A DNA stretch of 64,000 nucleotides, taken from Nakamurella flavida. GTDB lineage: Bacteria; Actinomycetota; Actinomycetes; Mycobacteriales; Nakamurellaceae. The DNA lies in NCBI RefSeq assembly GCF_030811475.1, contig NZ_JAUSQV010000001.1, positions 3,359,001 through 3,423,000 of the forward strand, read 5' to 3'. Positions 6,133 to 27,798 of the stretch are shown piece by piece. Within the stretch, counting starts at the first letter, position 1. Each line of letters begins with the position of its first letter. The notes beneath the pieces are model-generated. The model was not told the origin of the DNA, searched no databases, and worked only from the letters and a program-made list of their open reading frames with translations. The position numbers and the translations under genes are program-made.

Positions 6133-6152
6133 GGGCCCCTCACACCGGGAAC

Positions 6153-6304
6153 GGACGCGCCCCCGATCTGCGGACGCACCCCCGATCTGCGGACGCGCCC
6201 CCGTTGCGTGAACGCGCCTGCGATCAGAGGACGCGCTCCCGTTGTGTGAACGCGCCTGCGATCTGCGGACGCGCCCCCGTTGCGTGAACGCGCCTGCGAT
6301 CAGA
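6153..6304. repeat. Eight head-to-tail 19-bp repeats
   Basis: Eight consecutive units of exactly 19 bp fill 152 bp of a 237-bp intergenic space. The first is GGACGCGCCCCCGATCTGC. Units alternate between a form beginning GGACGCG and ending in CCGTTGCGT and a form GAACGCGCCTGCGATCAGA. The order is A, A, B, C, B', C', B, C, where units 3 and 7 are identical and units 4 and 8 are identical. Because 19 is not a multiple of three, the array does not encode a repeated peptide. There are no spacers, so it is not CRISPR. It lies between two convergent genes. Confidence 0.9.
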
Positions 6305-6369
6305 GGGTCGAACGACAAGTCCGGGCGCGTGTGATCCTGCCGCCCGGACGGCCCCGACCGGGGGACCCG

Positions 6370-11560: not shown

Positions 11561-12853
11561 GTGGTCGCTGCACCCCGACGATCCGCGTTGCTGGCCCTGC
11601 TCGCCCCGGAGCACCCCGGCGGCTCGCAGCAGGCCATCCTGGCCGAGCTGCGGCGGGTGATCCTGTCCGGGGACGTACCGCCGGGCACGCCCATCCCGCT
11701 CGACGAGGTGGCCGAACAGTTCGGTGTCAGCCGCATCCCGGTGCGCGAGGCGCTCAAGACGCTGGTCGGGGAGAGCCTGGTCGACCACCGCCCCCGGTCC
11801 GGCTACGCCGTCGCCCGGTTGACCCGGGCGGAGTTCGCCGAGCTGTACCTGGTGCGTGGGGTGCTGGAGTCCGCCGCGCTGGCCGCTGCCGTGGGCCGGG
11901 CCGGGCCCGCCGACGACGCCGCAGCGCAGGCGGCGCTGCGGGCGATGGACCGGGCCATCGGTGCGGACGACGTGCGGTCCTACCACCGGGAGAGCCGGGT
12001 GTTCCACCTGGCGCTGATCCGGCCCGCACACATGCTTCGGCTGCAGACCATGCTCGAATCCGCGTGGAACATGACCGAACCGTTCCGGCCGATGACCCTG
12101 CTCTCCGGGGCGCAGCGCACCCACCTGCACGCCGAGCACGCGGAGATGTTCACCGCGTTCGTGGCCCGGGACCGGGCGGCCCTGCTGGAGATCTCCGGAC
12201 GGCACATGCAGGGGCTGGAGACGGTGCTGGCCGATCTGCCCGACGACACCGGTCCGTTCGACCGCCCGCCGGACAGCAAGCCCGCACCTGGGATGCTGGC
12301 CGGGCCGCCCCACCCCGACCCCACCCCGGAGGACGACCCCATGAGCGCCCCGACCCCGCCCGTGATGAGCCTGGCCGAGTTCAACTCCGCCGACCCCGCG
12401 ACCGTTCGCGAGCTGCTCACCGCCTGCCTGGACGTGCCGAGCTGGGTGGACGCCGTCGCCGCCGGACGGCCCTACCCCGATCGCGTCGCGTTGGACGCCT
12501 CGGCCACCGGGCGGACCGCCCTGATCACCTGGGAGGAGGCGGCCGCCGCCCTGGCCCGCCACCCCCGGATCGGCGAGCGCGCCGGCGGGTCCGGTGTCGA
12601 CGCCGCCTGGTCGGGGAATGAGCAGTCCGGCGTGCAGGCCGGCCAGATCGACGACCTCGCCGCCGGGAACGCCGCCTACGAGGAGCGGTTCGGGCACATC
12701 TTCCTGATCTCGGCGGCCGGGCGCAGCGGGGACGAGATCCTGACCGCCCTCCGGGAACGCCTGACCCACACCCCCGAGGAGGAACGGGACGTCGTCCTGG
12801 GTGAGCTCGGCCAGATCGGGGCGCTGCGGCTGGACAAGGCGGTCGGGGCGTGA
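11561..12853 (+). CDS. GntR regulator fused in frame to OHCU decarboxylase (UraD)
   Basis: One uninterrupted 430-codon reading frame. Residues 25-85 form a GntR winged helix (GVSRIPVREALKTL near 58-71), and residues 95-235 an FCD effector-binding domain with the usual histidine- and arginine-bearing helices. Then comes a proline-rich linker (about 237-260) and, from residue 261, a complete UraD. No stop codon separates the two. GTG at 11561 is preceded by GGGGGAGG. Either this is a real regulator-enzyme fusion, or the regulator lacks its own stop and UraD is also made from the internal ATG at 12341, which has its own GGAGG. FadR/FCD-type GntR proteins usually sense small carboxylates, and here a urate-pathway intermediate is a plausible ligand. 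Confidence 0.8.
   Translation: MVAAPRRSALLALLAPEHPGGSQQAILAELRRVILSGDVPPGTPIPLDEVAEQFGVSRIPVREALKTLVGESLVDHRPRSGYAVARLTRAEFAELYLVRGVLESAALAAAVGRAGPADDAAAQAALRAMDRAIGADDVRSYHRESRVFHLALIRPAHMLRLQTMLESAWNMTEPFRPMTLLSGAQRTHLHAEHAEMFTAFVARDRAALLEISGRHMQGLETVLADLPDDTGPFDRPPDSKPAPGMLAGPPHPDPTPEDDPMSAPTPPVMSLAEFNSADPATVRELLTACLDVPSWVDAVAAGRPYPDRVALDASATGRTALITWEEAAAALARHPRIGERAGGSGVDAAWSGNEQSGVQAGQIDDLAAGNAAYEERFGHIFLISAAGRSGDEILTALRERLTHTPEEERDVVLGELGQIGALRLDKAVGA
12328..12343 (+). promoter_or_regulatory. Internal ribosome binding site and ATG for UraD
   Basis: GGAGG at 12328-12332 lies eight bases before the in-frame ATG at 12341, inside the fused frame. This is ideal Shine-Dalgarno spacing and suggests separate translation of UraD. 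Confidence 0.65.
12341..12853 (+). CDS. uraD: 2-oxo-4-hydroxy-4-carboxy-5-ureidoimidazoline decarboxylase
   Basis: Decarboxylates OHCU to S-allantoin, the third step of urate oxidation. The 170-residue region is the full length of the family. The catalytic His is in LARHPRIGE (His74 in this numbering), and the second key residue is the Glu in GNEQSGVQ (Glu94). The NAAYEERFG segment and the following IFLISAAGRS are also conserved. It is in frame with the preceding GntR regulator, with no stop between, but has its own GGAGG and ATG. The uraH gene starts inside its stop codon (GTGA), so uraD and uraH are translationally coupled. Confidence 0.9.
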   Translation: MSAPTPPVMSLAEFNSADPATVRELLTACLDVPSWVDAVAAGRPYPDRVALDASATGRTALITWEEAAAALARHPRIGERAGGSGVDAAWSGNEQSGVQAGQIDDLAAGNAAYEERFGHIFLISAAGRSGDEILTALRERLTHTPEEERDVVLGELGQIGALRLDKAVGA

Positions 12854-13200
12854 GCGGCACCGTGGAGCGGCTGTCCACCCACGTGCTGGACACCGTCCGG
12901 GGCCGGCCGGCCGCGGGGATCCCCGCCGTGCTGGAGGGCGTCGGTCCGGACGGATCGGTCCGGGTGCTCGGCCACGGCAGCACCGACACCGACGGCCGGG
13001 TCGGCCGGCTGAACCGGGACCCGCTGCCGGCGGGGGAGTACCGCATCGTGCTGTCCACCGGCGGGTACTTCGCCGCCGAGCACGGCAGCGTCTTCTTCCC
13101 GACGATCGCCGTCCAGGTCTTGCTCGACGGCGCCCGGGAGCACTACCACGTGCCCGTCCTGGTCAGCACGTACTCGTACTCCACCTACCTGGGCAGCTGA
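12850..13200 (+). CDS. uraH: Hydroxyisourate hydrolase
   Basis: Hydrolyses 5-hydroxyisourate, the product of uricase, to OHCU. The 116-residue transthyretin-fold protein has the N-terminal LSTHVLDT motif (His11), the conserved Arg50 in TDTDGRVGRL and the HYHVPVLVS segment with His98 and His100. These supply the catalytic residues of the family. The C-terminal tetrapeptide is YLGS instead of the usual YRGS, so a leucine replaces the conserved arginine. The GTG start overlaps the uraD stop by four bases. Together with uraD and uricase it converts urate to S-allantoin. Confidence 0.94.
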   Translation: MSGTVERLSTHVLDTVRGRPAAGIPAVLEGVGPDGSVRVLGHGSTDTDGRVGRLNRDPLPAGEYRIVLSTGGYFAAEHGSVFFPTIAVQVLLDGAREHYHVPVLVSTYSYSTYLGS

Positions 13201-13326
13201 CCGAGCGGGGCAGCGGATCGTTCCGAGCGCTGACGCCCCGGACACCCGCCCGACACACGGCTGCGGCACCATGCGGCACAGGTCGTCGGGACGGGCCCGG
13301 CCGATCACGAACGCGGGAGGCGCGCC

Positions 13327-14220
13327 ATGGGCATCGTCCTGGGACCGAACCAGTACGGCAAGGCCGAGGTGCGCATGGTGCACGTCGACCGGAGCACCCC
13401 GGTGCACGTGATCACCGACGTCAACGTCACCAGTCAGCTCATCGGGGACTTCTCGTCCACCTTCGCCACGGGTGACAACAGCGCGATCATCGCCACGGAC
13501 ACCCAGAAGAACACCGTCTACGCCCTGGCCCGCACCGGCGGCTTCAGCACCGTCGAGGAGTTCGCGCTGCGCCTGGCCCGGCACTTCGTCGGCCCCTACC
13601 CGCAGGTCACCGGCGCGCGGATGGAGATCGAGCAGTACGGGTGGGACCGCATCCACACCCCCGACGGTGCCCACGACCACTCCTTCGTCCGCGGGTCCGC
13701 CGAGGTGCGGACGGCGCTGGTCATGAAGGACGGCGACGACGAGCAGGTGATCTCCGGGGTGGCCGGCCTGGTCGTCCTGAAGAGCACCGGCAGCGAGTTC
13801 TGGGGCTTCCCGGACGTCCCGTACACCTCGCTGGTCGAGACCACCGACCGCATCATGGCCACCTCGGTCACCGCCCGCTGGCGGTACACCGGTGTCGACG
13901 TCGACTGGGACGCCGCCTTCACCGCGATCCGCGCGGTCATGCTGGAGAAGTTCGCGACCGTGCACAGCCTGTCCCTGCAGCAGACGCTCTTCGCGATGGG
14001 CGAGGCCGTGCTGACCGCGCACCCCGAGGTCGCCGAGATCCGGTTGTCCATGCCGAACAAGCACCACTTCCTGGTCGACCTGGAGAAGTGGGGCCTGGAC
14101 AACCCGAACATGGTCTTCTACGCCGCCGACCGCCCGTACGGCCTCATCGAGGCGTCCGTGCTCCGGGACGACGCGCCGCCGGCCCCGACCGCCTGGGACG
14201 GCGTGGCCGGCTTCGTCTGA
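13327..14220 (+). CDS. pucL: Urate oxidase (factor-independent urate hydroxylase)
   Basis: Oxidises urate to 5-hydroxyisourate with O2, without cofactor. The 297-residue protein has two T-fold halves. The catalytic Lys12 is in NQYGKAEVR, its partner Thr57 is in ATDTQKNTVYA, and the C-terminal SMPNKHHFLVDL segment (near residues 239-250) supplies the histidine of the catalytic triad. GGGAGG lies just upstream of the ATG. A 126-bp gap separates it from uraH. I see no clear -10 hexamer there, so read-through from uraDH is likely. No peroxisomal-type tail is expected or present. Confidence 0.96.
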   Translation: MGIVLGPNQYGKAEVRMVHVDRSTPVHVITDVNVTSQLIGDFSSTFATGDNSAIIATDTQKNTVYALARTGGFSTVEEFALRLARHFVGPYPQVTGARMEIEQYGWDRIHTPDGAHDHSFVRGSAEVRTALVMKDGDDEQVISGVAGLVVLKSTGSEFWGFPDVPYTSLVETTDRIMATSVTARWRYTGVDVDWDAAFTAIRAVMLEKFATVHSLSLQQTLFAMGEAVLTAHPEVAEIRLSMPNKHHFLVDLEKWGLDNPNMVFYAADRPYGLIEASVLRDDAPPAPTAWDGVAGFV

Positions 14221-14242
14221 TCCGTCCGTCCCCCGCGCCCGG

Positions 14243-14340
14243 TATATCCGCTGCTTAACGCGTCCTTCACCCGGCGGGGTCGGCACCGGCAACATCCGGG
14301 CGGGACCGTCCTGACCCGGAGGGGGCGGACCGACCGCCCC
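14243..14340 (+). promoter_or_regulatory. Leader of the NCS2 permease with shared motif and hairpin
   Basis: TATATCCGC at 14243-14251 repeats the motif upstream of the NCS1 permease. It is followed by TTAAC, six bases, TTCAC (14255-14270), similar to GTTAC-n6-TTCAC upstream of the ABC operon at 22439. A small perfect hairpin (14322-14340, 7-bp stem, 5-base loop) lies in the leader. Regulation by a nitrogen or urate sensor is a guess. Confidence 0.3.
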
Positions 14341-14361
14341 GGTCGGGTCGAGGGGGTCGTC

Positions 14362-15789
14362 ATGGGATTCAGGCGCAGGATGGGCGCGGACGGCAGGCCG
14401 CTGGAGTCCGTCGACGAGCTGCCCGGCTGGCGGCAGCTCATCCCGCTCGGCCTGCAGCACGTCCTGGCCATGTACGCCGGGGCCGTGGCCGTTCCCCTGG
14501 TCGTCGGCGGGGCGCTGATCGCCGCCGGCAAGCTGAACCCGGACGACCTCGGCTACCTGGTCACCGCCGACCTGTTCGTCGCGGGCATCGCCACCCTGAT
14601 CCAGTCCATCGGGTTCAAGTGGTTCGGCGTGCGGCTCCCGCTCATGCAGGGCTGCACCTTTGCGGCGGTGGCGCCGATGATCGTCATCGGGTCCACCTAC
14701 GGCGTGGCCGCCATCTACGGGTCGGTCATTGCCTCGGGCGTGTTCATGATGCTGATGGCCCCGCTGTTCGCCAGGCTCGTGCGCTTCTTCCCGCCGCTGG
14801 TGACGGGCACCGTCATCCTCATCATCGGCCTGTCGCTGATGGGCGTGGCCGCGAACTGGGCCGCCGGCGGCATCGTGACCGAGGACGGGGCCGAACCGGC
14901 CGGTGTCGCACTGGCCGCCGGGGTCCTGCTGTTCATCGTGCTCATCGAACGGTTCGGTCCGCCCGTGCTGGCCCGCATCTCCATCCTGCTGGGCATCGTG
15001 GTGGGCACCCTGGTCGCCATCCCCTTCGGCCAGGCGCACTGGACCAAGGTGGGCTCGGCCGACTGGGTCGGCGTCACCACCCCGTTCCACTTCGGCTTCC
15101 CGATCTTCGAGGTCTCCGCCATCGTCTCGATGTGCATCGTTGCGCTGGTGATCATGACCGAGACCACCGGCGACATCCTGGCCATCGGCGAGATCGTGGA
15201 CGTGCGGATCGACGGCGGCCGGCTGGCCGACGGCCTGCGCGCGGACGGCCTGTCCACCGTGCTCGGCGGGGTGTTCAACACCTTCCCGTACACCGCGTTC
15301 GCCCAGAACGTCGGCCTGGTCTCGATCACCGGGGTGCGCAGCCGGTTCGTCGCGACGTTCGCCGGCGGCGTCCTGCTGATCCTCGGGCTCACCCCCAAGA
15401 TGGGCGCGCTCGTCGAGGGCATCCCGCAGCCGGTGCTCGGTGGCGCCGGCATCGCCCTGTTCGGCATGGTCGCGGCCAGCGGGGTGCGCACGTTGTCCAC
15501 CGTGAAGTTCAACAACCGCAACATCCTGGTGGTGGCGATCGCGCTGGGTATCGCCATGATCCCGGTCGTCCGCGACGACTTCTACAACGCCTTCCCGACC
15601 TGGTTCAAGACGATCTTCCACTCCGGCATCAGCGCCGGCGCCATCGTCGCGATCCTGCTCAACCTGCTGCTGAACTCCGACAAGCAGCGCAAGCAGCTCG
15701 AGAACGAACCGCTCGCGGCCTACGACGCCGTGCGGGAATCCCCCCAGGTGGAGCCACGGGGCGAGGCCGCACGCATGCCGCAGCACTGA
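14362..15789 (+). CDS. NCS2 family purine permease (uric acid/xanthine)
   Basis: A 475-residue nucleobase-ascorbate transporter (NAT/NCS2) with about 14 hydrophobic segments. The family signature Q-N-x-G-x4-T-G is seen as QNVGLVSITGVRSR (about residues 314-327), and the substrate-binding glutamate lies in ETTGD near 266. The placement right after uricase and the ETTGD type suggest a proton symporter for urate or xanthine. Uracil permeases of the same family are the alternative. GGAGG is not obvious at the ATG at 14362. A strong hairpin follows the stop. Confidence 0.93.
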   Translation: MGFRRRMGADGRPLESVDELPGWRQLIPLGLQHVLAMYAGAVAVPLVVGGALIAAGKLNPDDLGYLVTADLFVAGIATLIQSIGFKWFGVRLPLMQGCTFAAVAPMIVIGSTYGVAAIYGSVIASGVFMMLMAPLFARLVRFFPPLVTGTVILIIGLSLMGVAANWAAGGIVTEDGAEPAGVALAAGVLLFIVLIERFGPPVLARISILLGIVVGTLVAIPFGQAHWTKVGSADWVGVTTPFHFGFPIFEVSAIVSMCIVALVIMTETTGDILAIGEIVDVRIDGGRLADGLRADGLSTVLGGVFNTFPYTAFAQNVGLVSITGVRSRFVATFAGGVLLILGLTPKMGALVEGIPQPVLGGAGIALFGMVAASGVRTLSTVKFNNRNILVVAIALGIAMIPVVRDDFYNAFPTWFKTIFHSGISAGAIVAILLNLLLNSDKQRKQLENEPLAAYDAVRESPQVEPRGEAARMPQH

Positions 15790-16334: not shown

Positions 16335-16419
16335 CTGCTGACGTGATCGGCCGCGGTGCCCTCCGGGGACGGCGGCGCAGGCCCGGACGCGCCGGGTCGT
16401 GGGCGAGAAGAGGCGGCAC

Positions 16420-16722
16420 GTGCACCTGACCCCGTCGGACACCGAGAAGCTGTTGCTCTCCGTGGCGGGCATGGTCGCCCGCGACCGCCTCGACCGCGGT
16501 GTGAAGCTGAACTACCCGGAAACCGTTGCCCTGCTGACCACCTGGGTCATCGAGCGGGCGCGGGACGGCCGCACGGTCGCCGATCTGATGGAGGCCGGTC
16601 GCGAGGTGCTGACCCGCGAGCAGGTGATGGACGGGGTCGCCGAGATGCTCCCCGACGTCCAGGTGGAGGCCACCTTCCCCGACGGTCGCAAGCTCGTCAC
16701 CATCCACCACCCGATCGCCTGA
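16420..16722 (+). CDS. ureA: Urease subunit gamma
   Basis: The 100-residue smallest structural subunit of nickel urease, which hydrolyses urea to ammonia and carbamate. The GTG start gives the canonical opening [13 protein letters not shown], and the ending [16 protein letters not shown] is also typical. A start at 16399 would add seven basic residues and is less likely. AGAGG lies a few bases upstream of the GTG. UreA, UreB and UreC are separate polypeptides here, as in most bacteria. Confidence 0.96.
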
Positions 16723-16732
16723 GAGGCCGGAC

Positions 16733-17083
16733 ATGGCAGGCACTTCCGCCCAGGGACCGGGCGCCGTCCGCGTCGCCGAGGGCACCATCGAGCTGAACGC
16801 CGGGCGCACCGCCGCCGAGCGCATCGAGCTCACCATCACCAACACCGGCGACCGCCCCGTGCAGATCGGCTCGCACCTGCACCTGCCGGACGCCAACACC
16901 GCGCTGGACTTCGACCGCGACGCCGCGCACGGCTTCCGCCTCGACATCCCCTCGGGCACCTCCCGCCGGTTCGAGCCGGGTGCCTCCCGGACCATCGACG
17001 CGGTGGCTCTGCAGGGGGCCCGCCGGGTACCCGGCGGACAGCTGAAGACCGCCGAGCAGATCGACCTGGACGGAGCCTCCTGA
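16733..17083 (+). CDS. ureB: Urease subunit beta
   Basis: A 116-residue structural subunit of urease. The family segments [42 protein letters not shown] and ARRVPGGQ are all present. The gene starts ten bases after ureA with GAGAGG upstream, and its stop overlaps the ureC start by one base (TGATG), which couples their translation. Confidence 0.96.
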
Positions 17084-18786
17084 TGGTGCAGATCTCCCGG
17101 GCCGAGTACGCGGCCCTCTACGGCCCCACCGTCGGCGACCAGGTCCGCCTGGGCGACACCGATCTGTGGATCGAGATCGAGCAGGACCTCACCGCGGGCG
17201 GTGAGGAGGCCGTGTTCGGCGGCGGCAAGTCCATCCGCGAGTCCATGGCGCAGGGCGAGACCTCCCGCGCCGACGGCGCGCTGGACACCGTCATCACCAA
17301 TGCGATCGTGCTCGACCACTGGGGCATCGTCCGCGCCGACGTCGGGATCCGGGACGGCCGGATCGTCGCGCTCGGCCGTTCCGGCAACCCGGACATCGCC
17401 GACGGCGTGCACCCCGATCTGGTCATCGGACCGGGCACCGATGTCATCTCCGGCGAGGGCAAGATCCTCACCGCGGGCGGCATCGACACCCACGTGCACC
17501 TGATCTCCCCGTCGCAGATCGTCGAGGCGCTGGCCACCGGGCTGACCACGTTGGGCGGCGGTGGCACCGGGCCGAGCGAGGGCACCAAGGCCACCACCGT
17601 CACCCCGGGGGCCTGGCACCTGCGGCAGATCCACCGGTCCATCGACCCGTACCCGATCAACCTGCTGCTGCTCGGCAAGGGCAACACCACCTCGGTGGCG
17701 GGCCTGGCCGAGCAGGCGTTGGCCGGCGCGGGCGGGTTCAAGGTGCACGAGGACTGGGGTTCCACCCCGGCCGCGGTCGACGCGGCGCTGCGTGCGGCCG
17801 ACGACTGGGGCCTGCAGGTCGCCCTGCACTCGGACTCGCTGAACGAGGCCGGCTACGTCGCCTCCACCATCGACGCCATCGCCGGACGTTCCATCAGCGC
17901 GTTCCACGTGGAGGGGGCCGGCGGCGGGCACGCGCCGGACATCCTCACGCTGGCCGGCCTGGCCCACGTCATCCCCGGGTCGACCAATCCGACGCTGCCG
18001 CACACCGTCAACACGGTGGACGAGCACCTGGACATGCTGATGGTGTGCCACCACCTGAACCCGGCGGTCCCCGAGGATCTGGCGTTCGCCGAGTCCCGCA
18101 TCCGGGCGACGACCATCGCGGCCGAGGACATCCTGCACGACATGGGCGCCATCTCGCTGACCTCCTCCGACGCCCAGGCGATGGGCCGGATCGGTGAGGT
18201 CATCGCCCGGACCTGGCAGGTGGCGCACGTCATGAAGGCACGCCGGGGCGATATCGGCGGCGGGCTGCCGGCGGACAACTTCCGGGCCCGGCGGTACATC
18301 GCCAAGTACACGATCAACCCGGCCATCGCCCACGGCCTGGACGACGAGATCGGGTCGGTGGAGGCCGGCAAGATGGCCGACCTCGTGCTGTGGGAGCCGA
18401 AGTTCTTCGGCATCCGGCCGTCCGTGGTCATCAAGGGCGGCGGCCTGGTCTGGGGCGCGCTCGGTGACCCGAACGCCTCCATCCCCACCCCGCAGCCGGT
18501 GCTGATGCGCCCGGCGCTCACCGCGGACGTGGGCGCCGACCTGTCCGTGTCCTTCGTCGCTCCGCGGGCCCTGGAGGACGGGCTCGCCGACCGGCTCGGG
18601 CTCCGCCGGAAGCTCGTCGGGGTCAAGCCCACCCGCGACGTCGGCAAGGCGCAGATGATCAACAACGACGCGCTGCCCCGCATCGACATCGATCCGGAGA
18701 CGTTCGCGATCGACGTGGACGGCGAACGGGTCGAGCCGGCGCCGGCCTCGGTGCTGCCGCTCGCCCAGCTCTACTCGATGTTCTGA
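17083..18786 (+). CDS. ureC: Urease subunit alpha
   Basis: The 567-residue catalytic subunit carrying the di-nickel centre. All active-site residues are present, at a constant +3 offset from Klebsiella numbering: His137 and His139 (THVHL), carbamylated Lys220 (GGFKVHEDW), His222, His249 (LHSDSLNE), His275 (FHVEG), flap Cys322 and catalytic His323 (MVCHHLN), and Asp363 (SSDAQAMG). The enzyme is therefore predicted to be active once nickel is inserted. Translation is coupled to ureB. Accessory genes ureFGD follow only after two unrelated genes. Confidence 0.98.
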
Positions 18787-18828: not shown

Positions 18829-19611
18829 GTGACCGATCTCCAGCGCAACGCCCGCACCCTCCTCGACCTGCACACCGCCCCCGAGATCCTCGTCCTGGCG
18901 AACGTGTGGGACGTCATCTCCGCGACCACCGTGACCGCCGTCCCCGGGGTCACGGCACTGGCCACGGCCAGCCACTCCATCGCCGCCACCTTCGGCTACG
19001 AGGACGGCGAGAACATCCCCCTCGAGCTGCACCTCGACATGGTCGGCCGGATCGTGCGTGCCGTCGACGTCCCCGTGTCGATGGATCTCGAATCCGGTTA
19101 CGGCGATGCCGGCGCCACCGCCGCCAAGGCCATCGAGCTCGGCGTCGTCGGCGGCAATCTTGAGGACCGGATGAAGCCGCTCGACGAGGCCGTGGCCGCC
19201 GTCGAGGCCGTGCTGAAGGCCGGCCGGGACGCCGGTATCGACTTCGTGCTCAACGCGCGGACCGATGCCCTGGTGCTGGCCGACGAGGACGCCGACCGCA
19301 CCGCCCTGCTGGATGAGGTCATCCGCCGTGGGCAGGCCTTCCTGGCCGCCGGCGCGCCCGTCGTCTTCGTGCCCCGCCTCGTCGACCGTGACGAGATCCG
19401 GGTGGTGGCCGATGCTCTCGGGCCCCGCAAGCTCACCCTGATCAGCCCGCCCGGCGCGGCGCTGCCCGCCCGCGAGCTGCAGGAGTTGGGCGTCGCCCGG
19501 GTCTCCACCGGCCCGTTCACCCAGCGCGTCGCGCTCACCGCGCTGCAGGACGCCGCCGCGGACATCGTCGGCGGCGGCGTGCTGCCGGCGAGCACCCGGG
19601 CGCTGAACTGA
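18829..19611 (+). CDS. Isocitrate lyase/PEP mutase superfamily enzyme
   Basis: A 260-residue TIM-barrel protein of the isocitrate lyase/phosphoenolpyruvate mutase superfamily. Visible marks are LVLANVWDV near the start (residues 23-31), ATASHSIAA and the metal-binding MDLESGYGD (Asp86, Glu88). A further acidic motif, GGNLEDR, follows. The catalytic KKCGH of true isocitrate lyase is absent, so it is not the glyoxylate-shunt enzyme. A carboxyvinyl-phosphonate-type or 2-methylisocitrate-like C-C lyase is possible. It sits between ureC and ureF with its own promoter and terminator, so it is probably not part of the urease operon. Confidence 0.88.
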   Translation: MTDLQRNARTLLDLHTAPEILVLANVWDVISATTVTAVPGVTALATASHSIAATFGYEDGENIPLELHLDMVGRIVRAVDVPVSMDLESGYGDAGATAAKAIELGVVGGNLEDRMKPLDEAVAAVEAVLKAGRDAGIDFVLNARTDALVLADEDADRTALLDEVIRRGQAFLAAGAPVVFVPRLVDRDEIRVVADALGPRKLTLISPPGAALPARELQELGVARVSTGPFTQRVALTALQDAAADIVGGGVLPASTRALN

Positions 19612-19907: not shown

Positions 19908-20654
19908 GTGCCCGCCCCGACCGAGCCGTCGACCCTTCCGGCCCGAACGTCCGCGCCCGCCGAGACGGGCGGCGCGGCCGAGCTGATGATGATGCTGCTG
20001 GCCGACGCGCGTCTGCCGACCGGCGCCCACACCCAGTCCGCCGGGCTGGAACCCGCTCTGCGGGCGGGGATGTCCATGGCCGAGTTGCCCGGGTACCTCA
20101 CCGCACGTCTGCGCACGGTCACCGCGGTCGAGGCCGGCGCCGCCGTGGTCGCCCGTCGCGTCGCCCTGGACGACCCCGATCCCACCGATCTCACGGAGCG
20201 TCTGGCCGCCGTGGACGCGGCCTGGCGGGCACGCACCGTGTCACCGGCGCTGCGCGAGGTCTCCGCCATGTTGGGCCGTGGCTACCTGCGGCTGGTCCGG
20301 CGGGTGTGGCCGACCGACGCGGGGATCTGTGCGGTGGCCGCCCTGACCCGACCGGGCCGGGCGGTCGTACTCGGTGCGGCCGCGGCCGCCGCCGGCCTGT
20401 CCGCGGCGCAGCTCGTGCGGCTGATGGGCTACGAGGACGTGCAGACGGTGAGTGCCGCCGCACTGAAACTGGAGCCCACCGACCCCGTGCTCGCGACGCT
20501 GTGGGTGGTCCGGGCCGCCCCGGAGATCGAGCGTATGGTGAGCGCCCTGTCCGATCTCCGCGAGGTGGCGGAGATCCCCGCACGCGGTGCGCCCCTGCTC
20601 GAGCAGTGGGCCGAAGTCCATGCCCTGTCGACCCAGCGGCTGTTCCGTGCCTGA
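19908..20654 (+). CDS. ureF: Urease accessory protein UreF
   Basis: A 248-residue α-helical chaperone that with UreD/UreH and UreG loads nickel into apo-urease and stimulates the UreG GTPase cycle. Family features are the [22 protein letters not shown] segment (about residues 30-51), with the conserved Pro-Thr-Gly and His-x-Gln-Ser residues, and a C-terminal region ending LSTQRLFRA. The first 20 residues are Pro/Ala-rich and variable. The stop is ten bases before the ureG start. Confidence 0.93.
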
Positions 20655-20664
20655 GAGGCCTGAG

Positions 20665-21642
20665 ATGACCGACATCCACGACCACGTCCACGAGGCCCCC
20701 GTCGCCACCCGGTCCTTCCGGCTCGGTGTGGCCGGCCCGGTGGGCACCGGCAAGTCCTCGCTGATCGCGTTGATCTGCCGCGAGATGAACGGCGAGCTCA
20801 ACCTCGGCGTCATCACCAACGACATCTACACCGACGAGGACGCGCGGTTCCTCAAGTCCGCCGGCGTGCTGGACCCCGAGCGCATCCGCGCGGTGGAGAC
20901 CGGCGCGTGCCCGCACACCGCGATCCGCGACGACGTCACCATGAACCTGCTCGCCGTCGAGGACCTCGAGGCCGACTTCGACCCGCTGGACGTCGTTCTC
21001 GTCGAGTCCGGTGGCGACAACCTGACCGCCACGTTCTCCCCGGCCCTGGTCGACGCGCAGATCTTCGTGCTCGACGTGGCCGGCGGCGGCGACGTGGCGC
21101 GCAAGGGTGGGCCGGGCATCGGCCGGGCAGACCTGTTGGTGGTCAACAAGACCGACCTCGGCCCGTACGTCGGGGTCGACGTGCCGCAGATGGTCGCCGA
21201 CGCCAGCGCCGCCCGCGACGGGCGCCCCGTGCTGGGTCTGTCCCGCCTGGACCGCGACTCCGTCGACCAGCTCACCGCCTGGCTGCGCGGCCTGCTCGCC
21301 GAGTTCCGCGGCGGCTCCCACGTCCCCGTCGACCCGGGCCCGATGGCCCCGCACTTCCACGCCGACGAAGAAGGCGGGGGACATGTGCACAGTCACGCCG
21401 ACGAAGAAGGCGGGGGGCATGTGCACAGTCACGCCGACGAAGAAGGCGGGGGACATGTGCACAGTCACGCCGACGAAGAAGGCGGGCACGCGCACAGTCA
21501 CGACGAGCCCCATACGCACGAGCCCCACACCCACGCCGACGGCACCACCCACCCGGTCGCGGGCGACGAGCCCCCGGCGACGGGCCCGGCGTTCGCCCTG
21601 CGCGACCGCACCCGGCACGCGCACGGTCCCGCTCAGGCGTGA
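20665..21642 (+). CDS. ureG: Urease accessory GTPase UreG with long His-rich tail
   Basis: SIMIBI-class GTPase that delivers nickel to urease. The core (about 15-215) has the P-loop GPVGTGKSS (24-32), TNDIYT, the metal-binding Cys82-Pro83-His84, ESGGDNL and NKTDL. UreG is normally about 200-230 residues and this one is 325. The extra C-terminal hundred residues include three 12-residue repeats, [12 protein letters not shown], and a shorter fourth copy (residues 232-278), with 19 histidines between residues 230 and 298 and two more near the end. The N-terminus also has HDHVH. No ureE is seen, so the tail probably stores or passes nickel. The stop overlaps the ureD start (GTGA). Confidence 0.96.
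21358..21498. repeat. 36-bp tandem repeat coding the UreG histidine tail
   Basis: Three 36-bp units (21358-21393, 21394-21429, 21430-21465) differ by one base and are followed by a 33-bp fourth unit (21466-21498). Each encodes a 12-residue histidine- and acid-rich block. The near identity at DNA level implies recent slippage or unequal recombination, so copy number may vary between strains. Confidence 0.92.
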
Positions 21643-22358
21643 TCGAGGTCGGCGTCCGGGCGGCGCCCGGACGTGCCCGGGTGCACCTGCGCGGTGGGCA
21701 GCTCAGCCCCCGACCGATGCGCGTCACCGACACCGGTGCCTCGGTCGCGCTGGTCGCCACCGGGGCACTGCTGCTCGGCGGTGACCACGTGGATGTCGCG
21801 CTGACGGTGGGCCCGGGAGCCTGGCTCGAGGTGGTGGAGATCGCCGGCACGGTGGCCTACGACGCGGCCGGGGAGGCGTCGTCCTGGACGGTGCGGGCGT
21901 CGGTCGAGGCGGGCGGGACCCTGGTCTGGTCCGGGGAGCCGTTCGTCGTCGCCGACGGGGCGAACACGGTGCGCACCCTGGACATCTCCCTGGCGCAGGG
22001 CGCCACGGCCACCGTGCGCGACGTGCTGGTGCTCGGGCGGACGGGGGAGCGGGGCGGGGCGGTGCGATCGGTGACCCGGGCCGACCTCGCAGGCCATCCG
22101 CTGCTGGCCGAGGACCTCGACCTGGCCGACCCCGTCGACCGCGGCCTGACCGGCGTGCTCGGCGCGGCCCGCGTGCTCGACACCATCGCCGTCCTGGGAC
22201 GACGGCTGGCCGAGGTCCCCGCCGACGCTCCGGCCGACCCCGGTTCCCGCTTCGAGCTGGCCGGGCCGGGCACTCTGCTGCGCAGTGTCCGGTCGGAGAC
22301 GGCCGGCTCGCCGCTCCTGGGCGTCTGGCCCGGTGTGCGCGCCGCGGCACTCAGCTGA
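21639..22358 (+). CDS. ureD: Urease accessory protein UreD
   Basis: A 239-residue member of the UreD (UreH) family, the scaffold that recruits UreF and UreG to apo-urease. β-rich segments such as [39 protein letters not shown] and [16 protein letters not shown] are typical. At 239 residues it is shorter than the usual 260-290. The GTG start lies inside the ureG stop (GTGA), so it is translationally coupled. It is the last urease gene. The next 298 bp are non-coding. Confidence 0.9.
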
Positions 22359-25704: not shown

Positions 25705-26618
25705 CCACCACCGCGTCCCCCGTCACCACTGGCAGCGCCCCGACCCCGGCGTCGACCCCGGCGGCGGAGTCGACCCGGACGCCGTCGGTGGTCGGCGCCG
25801 CCGCCAAGCGCGCGGGCGTCGCCGTGGTCACCATCGTGGTGTCCCTCGGTGCCCTCTGCCTGCTGTGGATCGGCCTGCTCAAGCTGTTCGACGTCAGCAA
25901 GTTCGTTGGCAAGGGGCCCGGCGACGTGTGGGCGTACCTGTTCAGCGCCAAGCCCGCCGCGGGCATCCGCCCCGCCTCGATGACGGCCGAGATGGCGCGG
26001 TCCGGGGCCTTCGACGCCCTGGGCACCACGCTGCTCGACGCGGCGATCGGCTTCGTCACCGGACTGGTCATCGCCCTGGTCATCGCGGCCGGCTTCGTGC
26101 TGCTCAAGCCGTTCGAGGTCGCGTTCATGCCCATCGCGATGCTGCTGCGGTCCGTCCCGCTGGTGGCCATGGCGCCGGTGCTGCTGCTCATCTTCGGTCA
26201 GGGCAAGCTCGGCATCGCGGCCATCGCGGCCATCGTCGTGCTCTTCCCGGCGTTGGTGAACATCACCCTGGGGCTGCGGTCCGCCTCGCCCCAGTCGCTG
26301 GACGTCATCCGGGTCAACGGTGGATCGCCCCTCACCGCGCTGCTCAAGGTGCGGGTTCCCTCCGCGCTGCCGCAGTTCCTGGCCTCGGTGCGGATCTCGG
26401 TCCCCGGCGCCATCGTGGGCGCGATGCTCGCCGAGTGGCTGTCCGGGTTCGACGGGCTGGGCGGCGTGCTGTCCACGTACAAGGGCCAGGGCAACTACGG
26501 CGGGGTGTGGACGGTCGTCGTCCTCGCCGTCGTCTCGTCGATCGTGCTGTACGCGGTGGCCGCTGTCATCGAGACGGCCGTGCTCGCGGCCTGGGGACCG
26601 GACGCCGGCAAGCGCTGA
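25701..26618 (+). CDS. ABC transporter permease 2 (NitT/TauT type)
   Basis: A 305-residue permease, related to but clearly different from permease 1. It has about six membrane segments and a docking loop DVIRVNGGSPLTALLKVRV near residues 205-223. The N-terminal 35 residues are Thr/Pro/Ala-rich. Its ATG overlaps the previous stop (ATGA). Two non-identical permeases are less usual for this ABC class, which more often has one homodimeric permease. A perfect 14-base palindrome spans its stop codon. Confidence 0.93.
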   Translation: MTTTASPVTTGSAPTPASTPAAESTRTPSVVGAAAKRAGVAVVTIVVSLGALCLLWIGLLKLFDVSKFVGKGPGDVWAYLFSAKPAAGIRPASMTAEMARSGAFDALGTTLLDAAIGFVTGLVIALVIAAGFVLLKPFEVAFMPIAMLLRSVPLVAMAPVLLLIFGQGKLGIAAIAAIVVLFPALVNITLGLRSASPQSLDVIRVNGGSPLTALLKVRVPSALPQFLASVRISVPGAIVGAMLAEWLSGFDGLGGVLSTYKGQGNYGGVWTVVVLAVVSSIVLYAVAAVIETAVLAAWGPDAGKR

Positions 26619-26629
26619 CCCCGGGGTCA
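26616..26629. repeat. Perfect palindrome at the permease 2 stop
   Basis: TGACCCCGGGGTCA spans the stop codon. With no loop it is a poor terminator. It could be a dyad operator or chance in G/C-rich DNA. Confidence 0.3.
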
Positions 26630-26676
26630 GCGCGCGCGGTGGTGCCCCACGACCCGGACCTGGAGACCGCGACACC

Positions 26677-27798
26677 ATGAACGCCGCATCACCCGCCGCC
26701 GCGTCGGCGGAACCCGTGCTGCCCCCGGCGATCACCGGCGGGCGGGAGTGGCGGCGGCGCACCGCCGGGGCCCTCGCGATCGTCGCGGCCCTGCACGTGC
26801 TGGCCTTCGGCGTGCTGTTCGTGGCCGTCCTCCCCGGCGGGTTCACCGTCGGTGACTCGGTCTTCGGGATCGGCCTGGCGCTCACCGCCTACGTGCTCGG
26901 TGTCCGGCACGCCTTCGATGCCGACCACCTGGCCGCCATCGACAACACCACCCGCACCCTGGTCGCCCGGGGTCGGCCGTCGGTCAGCGTCGGGCTGTTC
27001 TTCTCCCTGGGTCACTCCAGCGTGGTCTTCGTGATGGCCGTGCTGGTGGCCGCCGGCGCCTCGGTGGTCAGCACCCTGGTCGACGAGGGGTCCACCGCCC
27101 ACGAGACCCTGGGCGTCATCGGGGTGTCGGTCTCCGGGCTGTTCCTCGTCCTCATCGGCCTGATCAACCTGGTCGCCTTCCTCGGCATCCTGCGGGTGTG
27201 GCGGAAGGCCCGCGGCGGGGAGCTCGACGAGGCCCGACTCGAGGAGGCGCTGGAGTCCCGGGGCCTGCTGACCCGGCTGCTGCGACCGGCGCTGCGGCGC
27301 ATCCGCCGACCGGGCCAGATGTACCCGCTGGGGTTCCTCTTCGGGCTCGGCTTCGACACCGCCACCGAGATCTCCCTGCTCGTGCTGGCCGGCACCGGCG
27401 CGGCGACCGGGCTGCCCTGGTACGCCGTGCTCGTCCTGCCGCTGCTCTTCGCCTCCGGGATGAGCCTGTTCGACACCCTGGACGGCGCCGTCATGCAGGC
27501 CGCCTACCGCTGGTCGGTCATCCGGCCCGTGCGGCGGATCTACGTCAACCTCACCACCACCGGGTTGTCGGTGGCCGTGGCCCTGATCATCGGCCTCATC
27601 GAACTCGTCTCGGTGGTCCACGACCGGGCCGGCCTGACCGACCCGCTCACCACCTGGATCGCCGGGCTCGGGCTGGATCTGGTGGGCTATCTCGTCGTCG
27701 CCGCGTTCCTCGTCGTGTGGGGCGCGTCGGCCGCCTACTGGCGGTTCGGCCGGGTCGAGGAGCGGTGGACGGGCGGGGGTGCCGGGGCGGCCGGCTGA
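26677..27798 (+). CDS. Nickel/cobalt permease, NiCoT (HoxN/NixA) family
   Basis: A 373-residue membrane protein with about eight transmembrane segments. The metal-selectivity motif RHAFDADHLAAIDNTTR (from Arg77) is exact for the NiCoT family, and FFSLGHSSVVF and LGFDTATEI are the other two family signatures. It should import Ni2+ (or Co2+) with high affinity. Its place at the end of the purine-urease block strongly suggests that it feeds urease. It begins 58 bases after permease 2 and may share that transcript. Confidence 0.95.
   Translation: MNAASPAAASAEPVLPPAITGGREWRRRTAGALAIVAALHVLAFGVLFVAVLPGGFTVGDSVFGIGLALTAYVLGVRHAFDADHLAAIDNTTRTLVARGRPSVSVGLFFSLGHSSVVFVMAVLVAAGASVVSTLVDEGSTAHETLGVIGVSVSGLFLVLIGLINLVAFLGILRVWRKARGGELDEARLEEALESRGLLTRLLRPALRRIRRPGQMYPLGFLFGLGFDTATEISLLVLAGTGAATGLPWYAVLVLPLLFASGMSLFDTLDGAVMQAAYRWSVIRPVRRIYVNLTTTGLSVAVALIIGLIELVSVVHDRAGLTDPLTTWIAGLGLDLVGYLVVAAFLVVWGASAAYWRFGRVEERWTGGGAGAAG

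Follow-up and report, generated by a model that had tools for sequence, protein, structure and literature searches.

The UreG protein of Nakamurella flavida carries a long histidine-rich tail at its C-terminus, and this tail is likely to be a nickel-binding or buffering arm that does the job of UreE in a lineage without UreE. The basis for this reading consists of the gene itself, its tail and tandem repeat, the lack of UreE and HypA, the conservation of the tail across the clade, and the association of terminal histidines with the lack of UreE. The tail would bind nickel and hand it over, and the copy number of the repeat would affect how much is held.

The window, that is, the whole stretch of 64,000 nucleotides that was analysed, contains the urease genes in the order ureA, ureB, ureC, PEP-mutase-like gene, ureF, ureG and ureD, followed by an ABC system and the gene of a NicO-type permease.

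16399..16722, + strand, ureA (urease gamma; PF00547)
16733..17083, + strand, ureB (urease beta; PF00699)
17083..18786, + strand, ureC (urease alpha; PF00449 and PF01979)
18829-19611, PEP-mutase-like gene between ureC and ureF (PF13714)
19908..20654, + strand, ureF (PF01730)
20665..21642, + strand, ureG (325 aa, from ATG at 20665 to TGA at 21642; usual core and His-rich C-terminal tail)
21639..22358, + strand, ureD (PF01774; starts with GTG, overlapping the stop codon of ureG)
26434..27798 (start codon tentative), + strand, NicO-type nickel/cobalt permease (PF03824), downstream of the urease genes and in the same direction

The PEP-mutase-like gene (PF13714) was not detected in any of the 83 related stretches searched, and NicO was found within the stretch examined in 27 of 83 relatives. 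The ABC system 3' of ureD has two permease matches besides its ATPase and its substrate-binding protein. The region 12850-15789, upstream of the urease genes, encodes HIUase and uricase along with a xanthine/uracil-family permease, and OHCU decarboxylase is encoded before it. Because of the families of these upstream genes, urease is probably the end of a purine-degradation (purine-to-ammonia) block.

The core of the protein (residues 16-215, 200 residues) is that of a usual UreG, as the earlier note had stated: residues 18-208 match the TIGR00101 ureG model with 237.5 bits, above the curated cut-off of 204.2, and the same residues can be aligned with two solved structures of UreG, 5xkt and 4hi0. 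The P-loop GPVGTGKS is present, and C82, P83 and H84, which we take to be the Cys-Pro-His metal motif of UreG, are invariant in 33 of 33 sequences (alignment A2, which includes 32 of the 80 relatives described below). With a TIGR00101 score over the cut-off, both motifs, and a gene placed among ureA, ureB, ureC, ureF and ureD, the protein can be assigned to UreG. Its N-terminus bears three further histidines, in a stretch of 10 residues, which the earlier note had missed. The features of the tail are as follows.

21310..21639, + strand, coding part of the UreG tail (110 residues after the 200-residue core, with 22 His)
21331..21354, + strand, entry motif DPGPMAPH
21358..21498, + strand, tandem repeat of three 36-bp units and one of 33 bp (12-residue unit peptide)

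Recounting of the tail gave 19 of its 22 histidines within the 70 residues starting with HFHADEE, the same number that had been counted before. Likewise, the repeat had been described as three full units of 36 bp and one of 33 bp, and this holds both in the sequence, where the units are read at 21358-21393, 21394-21429, 21430-21465 and 21466-21498, and in the output of Tandem Repeats Finder (21358-21486, period 36, 3.6 copies, 97% matches). A 21-base piece of the 36-bp unit occurs four times in the window, compared with a mean of 0.00 in 100 shuffles. A scattered mobile repeat was rejected, since a 24-base piece of the unit, with no more than three mismatches, is found at three places in the whole genome, all of them in ureG. 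A second tandem repeat array is present in the window at 6152-6306, with periods 19, 38 and 76.

Within alignment A2, the histidines H230, H232, H242 and H244 are invariant in the 33 sequences. An AlphaFold2 model built from this alignment has a mean pLDDT of 71.9, with a core that is mostly confident. In the tail it places short strands at 230-233 and 239-242, in a block of low confidence (pLDDT about 50-67), while pLDDT falls below 50 at 246-289 and 297-318, so that most of the tail is predicted to be disordered. From this model, the repeat unit may be seen as an acidic, Gly-rich turn flanked by two His-x-His arms, which would give one potential metal site per unit.

The genome that was searched consists of one contig (4,320,333 bp, 100% complete). 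The UreE models PF02814 and PF05194 have no match anywhere in it, the urease locus included, and both match in Corynebacterium glutamicum, which served as the positive control; the missing ureE, for which a whole-genome search had been proposed beforehand, is thus established by these models. With a purpose-made UreE profile, whose positive control worked, there was also no match in the window or in the stretches examined from the 80 relatives and from three congeners. Could another nickel chaperone then supply the metal, with the tail being incidental? HypA and HypB serve urease in Helicobacter pylori, as described in PMC7055735, and HypB was proposed for exceptional genomes by Haas et al. 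(2009, PMC2770081). For N. flavida, supply by HypA/HypB or SlyD is nevertheless highly improbable, as HypA has no match in the genome at E 1, and a search of the genome with UreG as the query, carried to E 10, yielded 17 candidates, none of them a second related GTPase.

The tail is not restricted to N. flavida. The relatives, which are the best 80 of 401 in a scan of named genomes and belong to Cellulosimicrobium, Nakamurella, Kineococcus, Cellulomonas, Kribbella, Microbacterium, Arthrobacter and other genera, all have a His-rich C-terminal tail on UreG, with 5-28 histidines (median 10). The family sample contains 17 genomes, all of the same genus; UreG was found in 11, each time with such a tail (11/11). 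Four pairs of tails, each from a same-genus genome and a Nakamurella record, are identical (L004/L084, L007/L086, L008/L085 and L022/L088). The entry motif DPGPMAPH is present in 79 of the 80 relatives, in 11/11 in the family, and in 21 of the 29 closest UreGs of the class sample. In the congener G006 (L277:8113-18300), the ureF match that scores best is about 8 kb away from ureG, and ureC was not found in its 19-kb stretch.

Because the His-rich tail occurs in all 80 relatives and in all 11 UreG-bearing genomes of the family, the comparison of sequences indicates that the tail is old, and that tandem duplication has lengthened it but did not create it. Consequently, the earlier view of a tail built by slippage stands only in part: it fails for the tail itself and holds for the extra length, which is due to repeat expansion, with about 4 units in the window and 6 in the congener G004, whose unit has nearly the same 36 bp. 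The other nine UreG-bearing genomes of the family have no such 36-bp array, and two of these hold other tandem repeats; copy number varies from one species of the genus to another.

The arrays of the window (21358-21498) and of G004 (L276:10430-10690) have 35 identical bases in common, and these shared bases include codons that are rare in the window's genes (GAA 9%, CAT 5%, GGA 4%). By comparison, the fourfold sites of the two ureG cores agree at 73 of 116 positions (37% differ), and only one of 11 rare window codons of the ureG core is kept in G004. In a BLAST comparison of the two, the array block has 92% identity over 125 bp, compared with 72% for the surrounding ureF-ureD stretch, and G004 is not the sister of the window's sequence in either of the two trees described below. 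One reading of these sequences is that the 36-bp array may have been exchanged between species.

A role of the array at the level of RNA was considered and rejected. The RNA of 21340-21520 folds better than its dinucleotide shuffles (z -4.3, 0/200 as good), but this apparent excess is gone against synonymous recodings of the same peptide (z +0.2), 120 of 200 of which fold equally well or better. The array RNA of G004 folds worse than 200 of 200 synonymous recodings.

Whether the number of units matters is a separate question. Slippage in GC-rich His/Gly/Glu codons may have produced the repeat neutrally, so that units added to the single ancestral one have little effect, and we give this a real though lesser chance. 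The numbers and types of units do vary among relatives, as would be expected from neutral slippage: a tandem repeat score of at least 50 is reached in 23 of 80 tails, and the tail of Kineococcus rubinsiae has an 18-bp unit in 8.7 copies. However, the HxH pairs and the reading frame are kept in each full unit, and G004 has this unit in its array too, rare codons included. It should be noted that neutral slippage would bear on the copy number alone, and that the tail could be functional all the same. It also seems rather unlikely that the tail is a general store or buffer of metals (nickel, cobalt, zinc, copper) without any delivery step, with UreG getting its nickel without a chaperone. The wide variation in tail length and histidine number among the 80 relatives is as for a buffer, and so is the predicted disorder of most of the tail. 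Against this stand the conservation of the DPGPMAPH entry and of four histidines, and the fact that terminal histidines track the lack of UreE, and do not track metal load in any visible way.

This last point comes from a comparison of 394 Actinomycetes genomes. PF02814 has a match in 10 of them, 9 being over the cut-off, and PF05194 in 7, 6 being over the cut-off. UreG copies, counted only at E 1e-40 or stronger, were found in 146 of the 394 genomes (161 copies); 160 of the 161 were scored, the partial second UreG of G310 being left out. A copy was termed UreE-linked if it lies within 4 kb of a UreE match over the cut-off. Two matches below the cut-off are not counted, namely PF02814 in G071 (22.6 bits, on another contig than its ureG) and PF05194 in G187 (21.5 bits, a genome outside the 146 with UreG). 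All 10 UreE-linked UreGs are without histidine in either extension. The other 150 comprise 134 with at least three histidines at one end, 11 with two and 5 with none; that is, 145 of 150 have at least two. In this count, N-terminal starts were set by rule, and four copies of the N-terminal type (L225, L240, L249 and L255), which are among the 145, were moved to inferred TTG starts, without which they have 0-1 terminal histidines. Both kinds of UreG occur together in G055, G246, G267 and G350, and each time the His-free copies are the UreE-linked ones.

The type of UreG changes 8 times on a tree of 186 rows, which includes 16 of the 80 relatives and carries one wrong label (L233 is labelled 'none' through a wrong start and is of the N-terminal type), and 4 times on a tree of 65 of these rows, partly a random draw, which has long branches that meet. 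Judging from these sequences, terminal histidines on UreG go with the lack of a linked UreE, and the pattern is clustered by descent, reflecting a few switches rather than 160 events. The replacement of UreE by the tail is tempered by this clustering, by the 11 UreE-less UreGs with two terminal histidines and the 5 with none, by the finding of NicO in no more than 27 of the 83 related stretches, and by the low confidence of the predicted strands.

The five exceptions, in which both UreE and terminal histidines on UreG are lacking, are those of G285, G296, G347, G402 and the second cluster of G110. UreE was found neither by Pfam in their genomes nor by the purpose-made profile in their stretches of 10.5 to 11 kb. 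In all five, a protein with a His-rich tail, weakly resembling CbiX, is encoded between ureA and ureB.

L268:8737-9618, - strand, His-tailed CbiX-like gene
L269:8757-9944, - strand, His-tailed CbiX-like gene
L270:8843-9859, - strand, His-tailed CbiX-like gene
L271:8541-9572, - strand, His-tailed CbiX-like gene
L272:1204-2244, + strand, His-tailed CbiX-like gene

With PF01903 (CbiX, cut-off 22 bits), one of the five proteins scores 27.0 bits, over the cut-off, two score 17.8 and 18.2, below it, and two have no match; four of them were compared with NCBIfam and reached no cut-off, and a profile of the five gave no significant match to solved structures. Searched against the 394 genomes, this profile (A1) matches strongly, with E values of 2e-116 or below, in these 5 and in no others; there are also two weaker matches near 1e-13 that have no urease genes nearby, and none of the nine genomes with UreE has the gene (0/9). 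In the family of G285, profile A1 matches in 11 of 341 genomes, 8 of which are new. All 13 strong matches of the two profile searches adjoin ureA, and their last 130 residues contain 12-32 histidines. Five of the eight new genomes have a linked ureG without terminal histidines from the first start codon and no UreE in the stretch; one of these five genes has in-frame His codons upstream of its start, with no start codon before them. The other three, in whose stretches neither ureC nor ureG was detected, were left unscored.

The same layout of the CbiX-like gene and the urease genes is seen on the Streptomyces plasmid NBC_01237, and on the Embleya plasmid NBC_00896 the gene is followed by ureB, and neither ureA nor ureG was detected in the stretch; in both plasmid records the region is without gene annotation. 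The His tail of the ureA-linked protein may have been inherited from CbiX and not newly added, because L298, one of the two ordinary CbiX-like matches, has a His-rich tail at its end too. Gene position and composition suggest that the CbiX-like protein may be another carrier of the UreE-type function. Among the titles listed in searches of the literature, none concerns a CbiX-like urease protein, one of the searches being blurred by matches to 'urea'.

Taken as a replacement of UreE, the tail could work as follows. UreG is the GTPase that aids the loading of nickel into urease, here in a lineage without UreE; nickel, perhaps imported by the neighbouring NicO permease, would be held on the tail, in which the conserved DPGPMAPH entry is followed by His-x-His pairs on an acidic, Gly-rich linker. 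From there it would reach the UreG dimer at its Cys-Pro-His site, and go on through UreF/UreD to urease. A single ancestral HADE-GG-HVHS unit would have been multiplied in tandem in N. flavida, which should add binding sites. More generally, nickel storage in the urease assembly of Actinomycetes might be a portable His-rich module found on several carriers, namely UreE, the N-terminus of UreG, its C-terminus (as in the window, where repeats have enlarged it), and an apparently undescribed CbiX-like protein whose gene directly follows ureA, a view for and against which we find the case evenly balanced. If it is true, the CbiX-like carrier would account for clusters in which UreE is missing and UreG is not His-rich, such as those that Haas et al. 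(2009) set apart as exceptions. Nature offers tails with about 4 units, with 6 and with no array, which are suited to testing whether the number of sites matters.

In fact, the arrangement is an enlarged case of a known kind, and the idea was published in 2009. For genomes without ureE, Haas et al. (2009, PMC2770081) reported that in all but two UreG bears a stretch of histidines, at either its N- or its C-terminus, and proposed it as compensation; the two exceptions are B. japonicum USDA 110 and the actinomycete Frankia CcI3. The UreG of N. flavida fits this type in sequence, with no ureE in the genome and 22 histidines in the 110 C-terminal residues. The earlier suggestion that the tail stands in for UreE gains from the genome without UreE, the association of terminal histidines with the lack of a linked UreE over 160 UreGs and the printed precedent; what it loses is its novelty, since the idea was already tabulated in 2009. 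The functional reading is known in kind and probably right, with nickel binding predicted. Among the titles listed for UreG with a tandem repeat, or for UreG and UreE with a His-rich tail, none deals with the present tail. As far as the literature search reaches, the clade-wide C-terminal motif, the six-unit congener and, in the exceptions, the CbiX-like gene with a His tail are new. To the idea of UreG taking over the nickel-storage job of UreE, the tail adds a version that is conserved, C-terminal and easily recognised by its sequence signature, with a repeat that can be counted. The CbiX-like gene, found only where a cluster has neither UreE nor a UreG with terminal histidines, offers a testable answer to the exceptions of 2009.

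Like the UreGs in Table 1 of Haas et al. (PMC2770081), the present protein is extended by a terminal His-rich stretch in the absence of ureE. Unlike the entries of that table, which are mostly N-terminal, with one marked as C-terminus, it has a long C-terminal tail with the DPGPMAPH start and the 36-bp repeat. Ure7 of Cryptococcus and the UreGs of plants and fungi are also UreG homologues with a His region in the absence of UreE (PMC3697809; PMC10100864), but theirs is an N-terminal extension in eukaryotes, whereas the present one is C-terminal, in an actinobacterium, and known from its sequence. According to the commentary PMC3697809, nickel binding and urease activity were lowered or lost when the histidines of Ure7 were mutated. 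The same case is made for eukaryotes in PMC10100864, which calls the feature not known from bacterial UreG; on this statement it is contradicted by the table of PMC2770081 and by the present data. The His-rich C-terminal tail of Klebsiella UreE, as described in PMC7055735, is likewise a disordered His-rich arm on a urease accessory protein, with the nickel binding being that of Klebsiella; it sits on UreE, which has a different fold, whereas here the arm is on the GTPase. Finally, HypB with an N-terminal His stretch is, in PMC2770081, a related GTPase that joins metal insertion with nickel storage, as is proposed here for the tailed UreG, from which it differs in belonging to the hydrogenase pathway and in bearing its stretch at the N-terminus.
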